Assembly: GCF_018613695.1 (NCBI RefSeq)
Contig: NZ_JAGGPR010000008.1
Span: 273,894 to 337,893 of the forward strand
Direction: 5' to 3'
Origin: Arthrobacter sp. ISL-95
Lineage (GTDB): Bacteria > Actinomycetota > Actinomycetes > Actinomycetales > Micrococcaceae
Length of the DNA stretch: 64,000 nt
The notes under the pieces were generated by a model. It ran no database searches. It was not told the DNA's origin and worked only from the letters and a program-made list of their open reading frames with translations. The position numbers and the translations under genes were made by a program. Of this stretch, positions 3,177 through 45,374 are shown in pieces (the stretch's first letter is position 1; every line of letters begins with the position of its first letter).

Positions 3177-3245
3177 GAAAACCCCCAATTTCGCGGCAGC
3201 AAGGTGCCGGGCCGGAGCTTCAGATGCTAGCAGCCCTCGAGAAAA

Positions 3246-3361
3246 CCCGAGGGACATGAGAGAGGATCCGCCCCAAACCCGAGGGACATGAGAGAGGATC
3301 CGCCCCAAACCCGAGGGAAGTGAGAGAGGATCCGCCCCAAACCCGAGGGAAGTGAGAGAGG
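3246..3361. repeat. 32-bp tandem repeat, about 3.6 copies
   Basis: The unit begins CCCGAGGGA and includes GAGAGAGGATCCGCCCC. Copies start at 3246, 3278, 3310 and 3342, so the period is exactly 32. The last copy is partial. The first two copies read GGGACATGAG and the last two GGGAAGTGAG. The array lies immediately after the stop codon of the cysteine-synthase-like gene (minus strand). Because 32 is not a multiple of three, it cannot encode a repeated peptide in one frame. Confidence 0.9.
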
Positions 3362-9256: not shown

Positions 9257-9366
9257 GAGTAATGAGCACCAGCGCACAGCCCTGACTTGCTGGTCGGCAA
9301 CCCTCTCTCCGGCGGGGTGCCTCAGGTGACTACTCGGCGTATCGACAACTCGAACTGCAAGCGTGA
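9257..9366 (+). promoter_or_regulatory. SAM-IV-type riboswitch upstream of DUF1737-rhodanese-metZ
   Basis: The leader matches what I know of actinobacterial SAM-IV aptamers: ATGAGCACCAGCG, then TTGCTGGTCGGCAACCCTC, then GGCGGGGTGCCTCAGGTGA. Closing stem P1 is GAGTA (9257-9261) with TACTC (9331-9335), and P2 is ACCAGC (9268-9273) with GCTGGT (9289-9294). SAM-IV aptamers bind S-adenosylmethionine and shut off methionine and sulfur genes. Its position 17 bases before the first gene of an operon ending in metZ fits that role. The 3' pseudoknot part (about 9336-9366) is less certain. Confidence 0.82.
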
Positions 9367-9382
9367 CTGAGGAGCACCAGCT

Positions 9383-11262: not shown

Positions 11263-11333
11263 CCCCGCTGCCACGAGCGGGAACCATCCCGTTTCCAAGG
11301 GACGCTTCACGGCCCTCAACCGTTTCGCAACCG

Positions 11334-11377
11334 TTTCCGCCATCCGCACCAGAGGTAGCTGGCGCGGATGGCGGAAA
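11334..11377. terminator. Hairpin between convergent metZ and the HTH-MurA gene
   Basis: A perfect 14-bp stem, TTTCCGCCATCCGC (11334-11347) with its complement (11364-11377), closes a 16-base loop. There is no run of T after it. It lies between two convergent genes and probably ends transcription of one or both. Confidence 0.55.
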
Positions 11378-11449
11378 TCGGAGCATCAAAAGGTGCGAAG
11401 GGGCGCGGCGGGCGTGGCCGGCACGCGCCACCCTCCCGCAACTCCTGCG

Positions 11450-21335: not shown

Positions 21336-21423
21336 TTTCTGCCTCCTGAGGTTACAGGAGGGGAAAGTGCTCCCCGGAATCCAAGTGGCCTGCGCCATCC
21401 GGATCCGGACACTCTGAGAAGCT

Positions 21424-21541
21424 CGACTCCCTTGCGCCGGTACTAACCGGATCAGGTTCGAGGGTCTGCGGCTGTCCGCACTCTCAGCGCCCTCGCGTCT
21501 CCTGCATCTCTGCAGAGTCCGACGGCGGCGCTCCCCTGTCG
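21424..21541 (-). promoter_or_regulatory. TPP riboswitch (THI box)
   Basis: Read on the minus strand, the leader contains AGGGGAGCGCC, then GGGCGCTGAGAGTGCGG, then GACCCTCGAACCTGATC, then GGTTAGTACCGGCG and AAGGGAGTCG. These are the conserved blocks of the thiamin-pyrophosphate aptamer, with P1 formed by CGAC (21538-21541) and GTCG (21424-21427). The P3 arm carries an extra helix (about 21495-21525). It precedes ykoE by 89 bases and should switch off the ykoEDC operon when thiamin pyrophosphate is plentiful. Confidence 0.93.
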
Positions 21542-21778
21542 TTATCAAATCTGCCCTGATGGGCTGGTTCAGTTTACACCTCAGTCTGCGGCGGGTGCTG
21601 GTCCGTTGCCGGCATGCGGTCACAATCGGCCGTGGTGGTGTGCGTTGCGTGGCGCCCGTGTGCGTTGCGAGGCCTGCTCTACGCCCTCCACCCCCGTTTT
21701 GCCACGCTCACCAGGCCCCACAACCAGAACCTGAGAGAATGAACCAGCAGACTTCACCGCGGCAAAGGGGCACATTTC
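21542..21778. other. Divergent intergenic region between ykoE leader and NUDIX gene
   Basis: Both promoters should lie here. A short direct repeat, GTGTGCGTTGCG, occurs twice (about 21638 and 21658), 20 bases apart. I see no gene. Confidence 0.4.
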
Positions 21779-38951: not shown

Positions 38952-39025
38952 GCGGGCGTAGCTCAATGGTAGAGCGCTAGCTTCCCAAGCTCGATACGCG
39001 GGTTCGATTCCCGTCGCCCGCTCCA
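38952..39025 (+). tRNA. tRNA-Gly (anticodon CCC)
   Basis: The 74-base gene encodes its own CCA. The acceptor stem is GCGGGCG/CGCCCGC, the D arm GCTC...GAGC, and the T arm GCGGG TTCGATT CCCGT. The anticodon loop TTCCCAA gives anticodon CCC (38984-38986), which reads GGG. One mismatch occurs in the anticodon stem (T28 with C42), and the G-T pair 49-65 is present. A terminator follows directly. Confidence 0.93.
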
Positions 39026-42978: not shown

Positions 42979-43578
42979 ATGATTCACGCCAAGCTCACCC
43001 AGCCGTCTGCCAGCTTCCATGCCTCGTGGCTGGAAAGTTACGACGAATGGGGAACCCTGGACCAAGACGGTTCTGCAGCCTTTGTGGCTGCGAGGTACCA
43101 CCTGGATCTTCGCGACAACAGCGACTTCGCCGAATGGGTTCAGGTGCTGCACCAGATGGCCAAGGACGACTTTCAACCTCCTGAAGGTTTGGCCAACCAG
43201 AGCACCATCTGGGTGGTTCGGGACGATGCATATTTGGGCGCCGTCAGCCTCAGGCACTCCTTGATAAATGAATACTTGACCGAGGTGGGTGGTCACATTG
43301 GCTACGGAATACGGCCAAGCGCAAGGGGTCACGGCCTCGCCAAATTCGCGCTGAACGGGGCCTTGAAAGAAGCGCGTGCACTCGGAATGGAACGGGTGAT
43401 GGTCACTTGCAAGCAGCCCAACGTGGCATCCGCCCGCACCATCGAAGCCTGTGGCGGCACTCTCGAAAGCGTTCGCCCTCCAGAGAGCTTCGCCCCGGAT
43501 TTGGGCGTCACTGAACCAATCCGCCGTTATTGGATAGATCTGCAGGGTACAGATGTGCTCGGTCATGGTCATCGCTGA
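42979..43578 (+). CDS. GNAT family N-acetyltransferase
   Basis: The 199-residue protein has the GNAT fold with the acetyl-CoA motif GYGIRPSARGHGLAKFAL and the following helix AREALGM-like ARALGMERVMVTC, then NVASARTIEACGG. It resembles GCN5-type acetyltransferases related to RimJ. The substrate is unknown. It lies 25 bases after the LysR gene and ends immediately before the repeat array. Confidence 0.85.
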   Translation: MIHAKLTQPSASFHASWLESYDEWGTLDQDGSAAFVAARYHLDLRDNSDFAEWVQVLHQMAKDDFQPPEGLANQSTIWVVRDDAYLGAVSLRHSLINEYLTEVGGHIGYGIRPSARGHGLAKFALNGALKEARALGMERVMVTCKQPNVASARTIEACGGTLESVRPPESFAPDLGVTEPIRRYWIDLQGTDVLGHGHR

Positions 43579-43591
43579 CTGGGCACGTACG

Positions 43592-44545
43592 CCGCACCCT
43601 TTTACGCCGTTTGCACCCGTAACCTCTGGTGCGCACGGCGGGAACGGGTGCGGTGTTAGCGCGTAAGGGGTGCGCACAGCGGAAACAGGTGCGGTGTTAG
43701 TGCGTGAGGGGTGCGCACGGCGGGAGCAGGTGCGCCGCGCGTGCTGACCACACCCACCCCGGCCACCCCGAACTTGGCAGCGGTTCCCCCTGCCGCACCC
43801 TTTTACGCCATTTGCACCCGTAACCTCTGGTGCGCACGGCGGGAACGGGTGCGGTGTTAGCGCGTAAGGGGTGCGCACGGCGGAAACGGGTGCCGTGCCC
43901 GTGCTGACCACACCCACCCCGGCCACCCCAAACTCGGCAGCAGCTCCCCCTGCCGCACCCTTTTACGCCGTTTGCACCCGTAACCTCTGGTGCGCACGGC
44001 GGGAACGGGTGCGGTGTTAGGGCGTGAGGGGTGCGCACAGCGGGAACAGGTGCGCCGCGCGTGCTGAGCACACCCACCCCGGCCACCCCAAACTCGGCAG
44101 CAGCTCCCCCTACCGCACCCTTTTACGCCATTTGCACCCGTAACCTCTGGTGCGCACGGCGGGAACGGGTGCTGTGTTAGCGCGTAAAGGGTGCGCACAG
44201 CGGAAACGGGTGCTGTGTTAGCGCGTAAAGGGTGCGCACAGCGGAAACGGGTGCTGTGTTAGCGCGTAAAGGGTGCGCACGGCGGGAACGGGTGCCGTGC
44301 CCGTGCTGACCGCACCCACCCCGGCCACCCCGAACTCGGCAGCAGCTCCCCCTGCCGCACCCTTTTACGCCGTTTGCACACGTAACCTCTGGTGCGCAGG
44401 GTGGGAACGTGTGCGGTGTTAGCGCGTAAAGGGTGCGCACGGCGGGAACGGGTGCGGTGTTAGTGCGAGAGGGGTGCGCACGGCGGGAACGGGTGCGGTG
44501 TTAGTGCGAGAGGGGTGCGCACGGCGGGAACGGGTGCGCGGATGT
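43592..44545. repeat. Nested repeat array of about 950 bp
   Basis: This gap holds no gene. A long unit begins CACCCTTTTACGCC at 43595, 43796, 43956, 44116 and 44358 (spacings 201, 160, 160, 242). Between them a 41-bp unit is repeated, GTGCGCACAGCGGAAACGGG... with starts at 44191, 44232 and 44273. The motif GTGCGCAC is itself a palindrome. GCACCCGT and ACGGGTGC form local stems, and CACCCTTTTACGC can pair with GCGTAAGGGGTG. Minus-strand open frames through it encode only repeat-derived peptides. Confidence 0.93.
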
Positions 44546-44570
44546 GTTCAGTAGGCGATACACCCTTACC

Positions 44571-44586
44571 GGGTAAGCGCATTCCC
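44571..44586. promoter_or_regulatory. LacI-type operator upstream of the sugar isomerase gene
   Basis: GGGTAAGCGCATTCCC matches the two operators at 47269 and 47319 (consensus GGGAAWGCGCTTTCCC). It lies nine bases before the start of the gene at 44595, so binding would block its transcription or initiation. Confidence 0.75.
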
Positions 44587-44594
44587 GCTATCCT

Positions 44595-45374
44595 GTGAAG
44601 ATGATCGACCTCACCACGCTGGCTGACCTCACGCCGGGCATTTGTTCAGTCACTCTCCGCTCGAAAGGGATTGAAGAGGTGGTCCACATTTCCTCGAATG
44701 CGGGCCTGGCCGGCATCGAGTGGGGCACCGATGTTCACGTCAGCGATGCCGATTCAGCCCAGCACGCCAAGAATGCAACAGCAGCGGCCGGGCTCAGTGT
44801 CCTATCGCTCGGCTCGTACTACCGTTGCGGTGTGTTCGGAGACTTCGGACGGGTGCTGGACATCGCCACAGCGCTTGGTGCGCCCAGGATCCGAGTATGG
44901 GCCGGGGAACGTGGCTCCGCCGAAGCCACTGAAGATCACTGGGACGCGGTGGTCGAAGACACTCGGCGCATTGCCGATCTGGCAGCCGAACGCGGGGTGG
45001 CCATCGCTTTTGAGTACCACGGCAACACCCTCACCGACTCCCCCGCGACCACGCTCAACTTACTGAACCGGGTGAATCACTCCAATGTGGGCACGTACTG
45101 GCAGCCCGCCGTCGGACTTTCAGACCAGCAGGCGCTGGACTCGCTCCACCAGGTCCTGCCGCATGTAGTGGGCGTGCATTGTTTCTCGTGGGGGCCGGAA
45201 GCCGAGCGCTTCCCGCTGCGGAATCGGAAGCTGCTGTGGCAGACCGTTACGGACGTCCTCCGCGGCAACGGCAAGGACATGGACATCATGCTGGAATTTG
45301 TCCAGGACGACCTTCCGGACAATGTGCTCAACGACGCCACTTTCCTGCACACCATCACGTTGGGCGAGGACTAA
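44595..45374 (+). CDS. Sugar phosphate isomerase/epimerase (AP-endonuclease-type TIM barrel)
   Basis: The 259-residue protein is a xylose-isomerase-like TIM barrel. Metal-site residues appear in GLAGIEWGTDVHV, IAFEYHGNTLTDSP, VGTYWQPAV and VGVHCFSWGPE, with a final Glu in DIMLEFVQ. Such enzymes epimerise or isomerise keto-sugars. A GTG start at 44595 and an ATG at 44601 are both possible. A LacI-type operator just upstream links it to the cluster at 46.2-50.6 kb, although an esterase and the repressor gene lie between. Confidence 0.83.
   Translation: MKMIDLTTLADLTPGICSVTLRSKGIEEVVHISSNAGLAGIEWGTDVHVSDADSAQHAKNATAAAGLSVLSLGSYYRCGVFGDFGRVLDIATALGAPRIRVWAGERGSAEATEDHWDAVVEDTRRIADLAAERGVAIAFEYHGNTLTDSPATTLNLLNRVNHSNVGTYWQPAVGLSDQQALDSLHQVLPHVVGVHCFSWGPEAERFPLRNRKLLWQTVTDVLRGNGKDMDIMLEFVQDDLPDNVLNDATFLHTITLGED

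Follow-up and report, generated by a model that had tools for sequence, protein, structure and literature searches.

A nested intergenic repeat array of Arthrobacter sp. ISL-95 appears to be a tandem expansion of an old, clade-specific palindromic element

The window analysed here, a 64-kb stretch (64,000 nucleotides) of the genome of Arthrobacter sp. ISL-95, contains a nested tandem array of about 950 bp (43592-44540), with periods of 160 and 41 bp, between the gene of a GNAT acetyltransferase and that of a xylose-isomerase-like TIM barrel protein. The array consists of five long units, each opening with a 60-bp imperfect palindrome (the core), after which one to three additional copies of the right arm follow at a step of 41 bp, with 15 right arms in total; a 59-bp linker closes units 1 to 4. 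The isomerase gene has a leader of its own, separate from the repeated element, and a second, single copy of the palindrome lies elsewhere in the window. These features, with the basis of the calls in parentheses, are as follows:

42979..43578, + strand: left neighbour, GNAT acetyltransferase gene
43592..44540, + strand: whole nested array, five long units and 15 right arms (repeat and motif searches)
43593..43652, + strand: unit 1 core, with left arm, GTAACC centre and first right arm (PWM, 91.9 bits; CM)
43669..43734, + strand: unit 1 extra right arms, at 43669 and 43710 (motif search)
43794..43853, + strand: unit 2 palindromic core (PWM, CM)
43870..43894, + strand: unit 2 extra right arm (motif search)
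43954..44013, + strand: unit 3 palindromic core (PWM, CM)
44030..44054, + strand: unit 3 extra right arm (motif search)
44114..44173, + strand: unit 4 palindromic core (PWM, CM)
44190..44296, + strand: unit 4 extra right arms, at 44190, 44231 and 44272 (motif search)
44356..44415, + strand: unit 5 palindromic core (PWM, CM)
44432..44538, + strand: unit 5 extra right arms, at 44432, 44473 and 44514 (motif search)
44553..44600, + strand: isomerase leader with the CTTACCGGGTAAG dyad, separate from the element (sequence)
44601..45374, + strand: right neighbour, xylose-isomerase-like TIM barrel gene
11326..11385, - strand: second, single palindrome copy, between a Cys/Met-metabolism PLP enzyme gene and an HTH/EPSP-synthase-like gene

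The nested organization, which the original prediction had described with periods of about 160 and 41 bp, was borne out by TRF (period 160 at 43669-44213; period 41 at 43628-43734, 44149-44299 and 44391-44538) and by the counts of GGTGCGCACNGCGGNAAC, which, with up to three mismatches, occurs 15 times within 43628-44531 and twice in the rest of the window, vs. a mean of 2.07 and a maximum of 10 in 100 shuffles. Of the GGTGCG hexamers in the 64-kb window, 24 out of 54 fall within the array, where the intact GGTGCG boxes of the right arms are spaced alternately by 19 and 22 bp; GTGCGCAC occurs 14 times. The statement that forward and inverse motifs are found in every long unit holds for CACCCTTTTACGC, present once in each of the five, but not for GCGTAAGGGGTG, which is found unchanged just in units 1 and 2 and elsewhere reads GCGTAAAGGGTG, GCGTGAGGGGTG or GCGAGAGGGGTG. 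The large hairpins that had been proposed can indeed form, as the first 60-nt core folds stably as RNA of either strand (-36.6 kcal/mol, z -6.2, for the + strand; -33.8 kcal/mol, z -4.3, for the - strand). The array is also better read as non-coding, as had been supposed, because neither 160 nor 41 is divisible by 3 and the longest minus-strand open reading frame across it continues antisense through the GNAT gene. Another tandem repeat of the window (3243-3361; 32 bp, 3.7 copies, 97% matches) is unlike the array in sequence, and Rfam models scored above threshold in the window for a SAM-IV riboswitch (9258-9369), a TPP riboswitch (21411-21547, minus strand) and a tRNA (38952-39022).

The element itself is a 60-bp palindrome of the form CGCACC..CGCC..GCACC-CGTAACCTCT-GGTGCG..GGCG..GGGTGCG, to which additional right arms are often appended in 41-bp steps. 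The left side carries two CGCACC-type boxes, the middle GTAACC and the right side at least two GGTGCG boxes, with a CGCC/GGCG box within each arm; the box spacing of 19 and 22 bp corresponds to approximately two helical turns. A search of the genome for the repeat unit, run with the 163-bp unit and with the CM of the core, found it dispersed: the DNA query matched at 42 places, and 74 CM matches on the two strands (E<=0.1) correspond to 38 copies at 16 sites. Within the genus, at least 29 of 206 genomes carry the element (CM matches, E<=1e-6), while the DNA unit as query gave matches in 4 of 59 genomes, the own genome among them. An exact 15-base scan yielded at least 14 Arthrobacter or Paenarthrobacter records among the 80 stretches listed, with all 19 matches in these records within the palindrome; among the matches listed, carriers include P. 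nitroguajacolicus LG01, P. nicotinovorans SSBW5 and Arthrobacter sp. 9V, and the matches in the remaining stretches, from other groups, are taken as chance 15-mers. In a midpoint-rooted ftsH tree of 35 genomes, 23 placed carriers (of the 29) fall into one clade of 24 (support 100/99), the one further row of which is G060; one genome, G089, has 10 matches only. The alignment used to characterize the element (A1) comprises 45 of 59 matches, the 14 others being omitted as off-register or reverse, as near-duplicates or as the two weakest. Matches in 7 of 149 genomes of other genera of the family (L338-L344) are near-perfect 60-bp palindromes that were not counted as members because their PWM scores were -5.8 to 5.4 in six of the seven inspected and 28.9 in L341; most of them have no sequence similarity to the element, and long palindromes may be common in these bacteria. 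Among the titles and abstract openings listed from the literature, searched in part for Arthrobacter or Paenarthrobacter repeats, a scope that leaves aside supplements and subscription journals, no description of the element was found. The available text of PMC12306157 has a table of REP counts that includes Arthrobacter livingstonensis and may cover repeats of this sort, and that of PMC3733652 does not mention Arthrobacter.

The element occupies the same positions in different species. When flanking proteins were compared, requiring at least one linking neighbour gene and the same relative orientation, 18 element sites proved common to two or more of five genomes (G000, G023, G061, G089, G151), among them the window site at 11326-11385, which is shared with G023 and G151; just one of the 15 locus groups in the five genomes is private, to the own genome. 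The site-genome cells are filled in 63 of 90 cases. Copies below 35 bits do not enter this count, nor do the private site L197 and a 61-base copy of the own genome, at C1:139078, that escaped the ungapped matrix; the other 27 cells may still contain decayed copies, and multi-copy sites are represented by their most similar pair. Absence from all relatives, named in advance as pointing to a neutral minisatellite, is thus not what was observed. At the isomerase site, the GNAT gene is followed by the element, then by the leader dyad and the isomerase gene, in the window as in G008. In G023 the element, the leader and the isomerase gene are present, and the GNAT frame beside the element (L203) apparently has an internal deletion, as judged by eye; since the element is kept there, it would have outlived the GNAT gene. 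The isomerase is 90% (G023) and 79% (G008) identical to the protein of the window. A comparison between species gives five units in the window, two in G061 and one each in G023, G151 and G008; the expansion is local, the site itself old. The CTTACCGGGTAAG dyad of the leader has identical letters in G023 and altered ones in G008, and is possibly the isomerase's own operator. The array does lie directly upstream of this leader, as first noted, but its nearness to the operator looks incidental because other shared sites adjoin other genes, in all gene arrangements.

The surroundings of the sites are diverse. Among 64 site clusters of the five genomes, a count that excludes those read from the window itself and relies on a crude gene caller based on codon usage, 63 are intergenic: the flanking genes are codirectional at 28, convergent at 18 and divergent at 17, while the remaining cluster falls within a questionable gene call. 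This is near the 2:1:1 ratio that is assumed for random placement. Several sites lie 14-50 bp past a stop codon or between convergent genes, and the annotated neighbours have unrelated functions. G000, G061, G089, G023 and G151 carry the copy after hpt, which also scores in G113, G182, G132 and G092; by eye, it is decayed or altered in G063, G088 (where it still looks palindromic) and G163, and G060 has another, LacI-like gene at that place. Because of these decayed or altered copies, and because G089 retains only its few matches, the element seems to be partly dispensable. Before ftsH, a minus-oriented copy is found in 10 of 18 carriers, all without an hpt end within 1.5 kb, and in none of the eight clade genomes where hpt lies at a distance of about 1.2 kb. 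In the five genomes with called genes, the hpt-ftsH interval has an AbiEi-like gene between two inverted copies, with a Pfam AbiEi_4 score of 21.5 bits, below the cut-off of 25; this gene was dropped as a candidate mobilizer, as annotated neighbours at other sites are unrelated. Across the orthologous intervals (L021 1528-4953 and its counterparts), the content is a lipoprotein-like or AbiEi-like gene (Pfam and by eye) or a LacI-like gene (G060 and G068; by eye). A different palindrome near ftsH in G078 was discarded as a repeat family at the sensitivity of the search, in which six genomes yielded the palindrome itself and one 30-base partial match in G072.

Sequence comparison of orthologous copies separates the boxes from the rest of the element. 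Divergence is 0.099 in box columns and 0.283 in spacer columns, and is lower in boxes at 17 of the 18 sites; the box columns were picked from A1, which holds the own, G008, G023 and G033 copies, so that the test is not fully independent of the column choice. A detection bias does not account for the contrast, because simulated even mutation at 0.283 lets 3.4% of copies pass the threshold and leaves the survivors at 0.168 (box) and 0.222 (spacer). RNA-type covariation is absent: 74.6% of cells are paired in 45 sequences vs. 77.2% in shuffled columns (covariation score 0.080 vs. 0.106), the Watson-Crick fraction of 100 unique copies is 0.687 vs. 0.697 when shuffled, and RNAalifold found no base pair in which both partners had changed (covariation term 0.07). 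Constrained boxes, together with the lack of covariation in the paired columns, suggest that the element is recognized as duplex DNA and not as RNA; symmetric protein contacts on duplex DNA would leave such a pattern.

These observations bear directly on the three options first raised for the array, namely a structural RNA, a protein binding array and a fast-evolving minisatellite. A structural RNA fits poorly, with no covariation and no Rfam match at the gathering threshold in the array, and was rejected as the main reading, given that pairing is no better than in shuffled columns. A hairpin acting at the RNA level in both directions, as a terminator, a stabilizer of mRNA 3' ends or a transcription insulator, would accord with the stable fold of either strand, with the sites just past stop codons or between convergent genes and with the mismatched cells of the GTAACC strand, of which 166 are G-T and 87 A-C, a skew that may point to pairing of this strand as RNA. 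It is nevertheless decidedly unlikely: the 17 sites between divergent genes need no terminator, covariation is lacking, the letters of boxes and loop are conserved rather than pairing alone, and by eye the cores in the window have no following T-run. Operators of a transcription factor whose regulon would be the neighbouring genes are highly unlikely, although inverted and direct boxes at helical spacing, and an array directly upstream of the isomerase leader, are what such a factor might use; 18 of the 64 sites lie between convergent genes, the annotated neighbours are unrelated in function and the dyad that belongs to the isomerase is distinct from the element. The minisatellite option captures the copy number, five units here and one or two in four other genomes, but not the age of the unit, which is found at the same positions in relatives; a purely neutral, functionless minisatellite, at odds with a unit common to species at 18 sites and with constrained boxes, is the least probable reading of all. 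A protein binding array is the best-fitting of the three, judging from the sequence patterns.

A mobile origin has to be weighed as well. The element could be the fixed relic of a REP/MITE-like palindromic mobile element that spread before the radiation of the clade, its mobilizing enzyme being gone or unrecognized and the box pattern representing an old transposase site. Such a relic would be dispersed, intergenic and palindromic, as the element is, and partly inverted pairs surround optional genes (hpt-ftsH). This explanation is a contender but an unlikely one, since only one of the 15 locus groups is private and a relic should decay evenly, yet the boxes are kept. Mobilization by a Y1/RAYT transposase (PF01797) was rejected, this family being found in none of 10 genomes while controls were positive in 5 of 14; a phage or plasmid origin was likewise rejected, as blastn against plasmid and phage collections gave no match and viral contigs no exact 21-base match, and both results also speak against a relic. 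In the available text of PMC2817692, REPs are intergenic palindromes with cognate transposases. The element resembles REP/BIME sequences in being intergenic, palindromic, dispersed and partly arranged in composite arrays, but differs in size (a 60-bp core vs. 20-40 bp in the available text of PMC3733652), in number (38 copies in its own genome vs. usually more than 100), in its ends (centre GTAACC and ends CGCACC/GGTGCG, without a GTAG-type end), in lacking, in the 10 genomes, the RAYT genes with which they go (number and RAYT association from the available text of PMC2817692) and in having positions common to several species. Intergenic location agrees with REP/BIME, whereas size, GTAG-type end and RAYT transposase do not, and the element is assigned neither to this group nor to SlmA- or Noc-type sites.

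The distribution along the chromosome offers a further lead. In the four genomes in which dnaA was located (G061, G151, G023, G089), the matches at E<=1e-6 are confined to the origin side, and the stretches devoid of them, 39-52% of the chromosome, have their centres near the terminus; five further genomes have a similar layout, provided that their sequences too begin at dnaA. After neighbours are merged, gap size is non-significant (P 0.14-0.45), and size and centring together give P 0.008-0.028 per genome, for genomes that share ancestry. G151 has one degenerate copy (39 bits, E 3.9e-6) close to its terminus, downstream of a ribosomal-protein-S1-like gene (L289 2827-2886; C1:2282827). Poor synteny was dismissed as the cause of the gap, as gene turnover alone is insufficient: G061 and G151 are collinear over 77% of the sequence near the terminus and 83% on the origin side (290 and 380 kb, judged comparable), the gap size itself being non-significant. 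The origin-side bias is statistically weak and serves as a lead only.

Taken on sequence evidence, the array appears to have arisen by tandem expansion from an intergenic DNA element that is old, clade-specific and conserved in position, and the preferred reading, to which we would give close to but not quite an even chance, is that this element is a multi-box binding site of a putative, perhaps architectural, protein, with neutral turnover of copy number. Such a sequence-specific DNA-binding protein would read the boxes along one face of the DNA, build a multi-protomer complex at each site and help to organize the chromosome through these sites. Several points weigh against this reading: the G-T excess on the GTAACC strand, the altered but still palindromic-looking copy of G088, the partial dispensability of the element, the column choice behind the contrast of boxes and spacers, and the weakness of the origin-side bias, with its degenerate terminus copy in G151. 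In the 41-bp and 160-bp expansions, which are probably neutral for the most part, boxes would be gained or lost through slippage or unequal exchange. Iteron and transposon-end arrays likewise repeat one box, in direct and inverted orientation, at a spacing of about two turns, but the sites of the element are dispersed on the chromosome, and no replication-initiator or transposase family was found among 20 proteins scanned, four of which had no family match at all. Sites of SlmA (SBS) and Noc (NBS) are, in the available texts of PMC4117426 and PMC4726725, palindromic, present in tens of copies and commoner on the origin side; the NBS has a 14-bp palindromic consensus (PMC4726725, available text), whereas the sites of the element are long and multi-box, with an origin-side bias of little statistical weight. 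The likeness is one of distribution only and is unproven. By this analogy, one may imagine an actinobacterial chromosome-organizing system, improbable as a whole, in which the putative protein would load on two-turn-spaced GGTGCG boxes at approximately 16 fixed, origin-side sites and couple the nucleoid to segregation or division, Noc/SlmA-like in function with site and protein unrelated, and in which array expansion would tune local loading.

What looked like a junk repeat thus turns out to belong to a family of conserved DNA sites whose boxes follow a grammar and whose species range is defined, which should allow the putative binding protein to be fished for. If the element is a relic, palindromic repeats would have been kept in place across species without a recognized transposase; if it is architectural, it would represent a new chromosome-site system in Actinobacteria.
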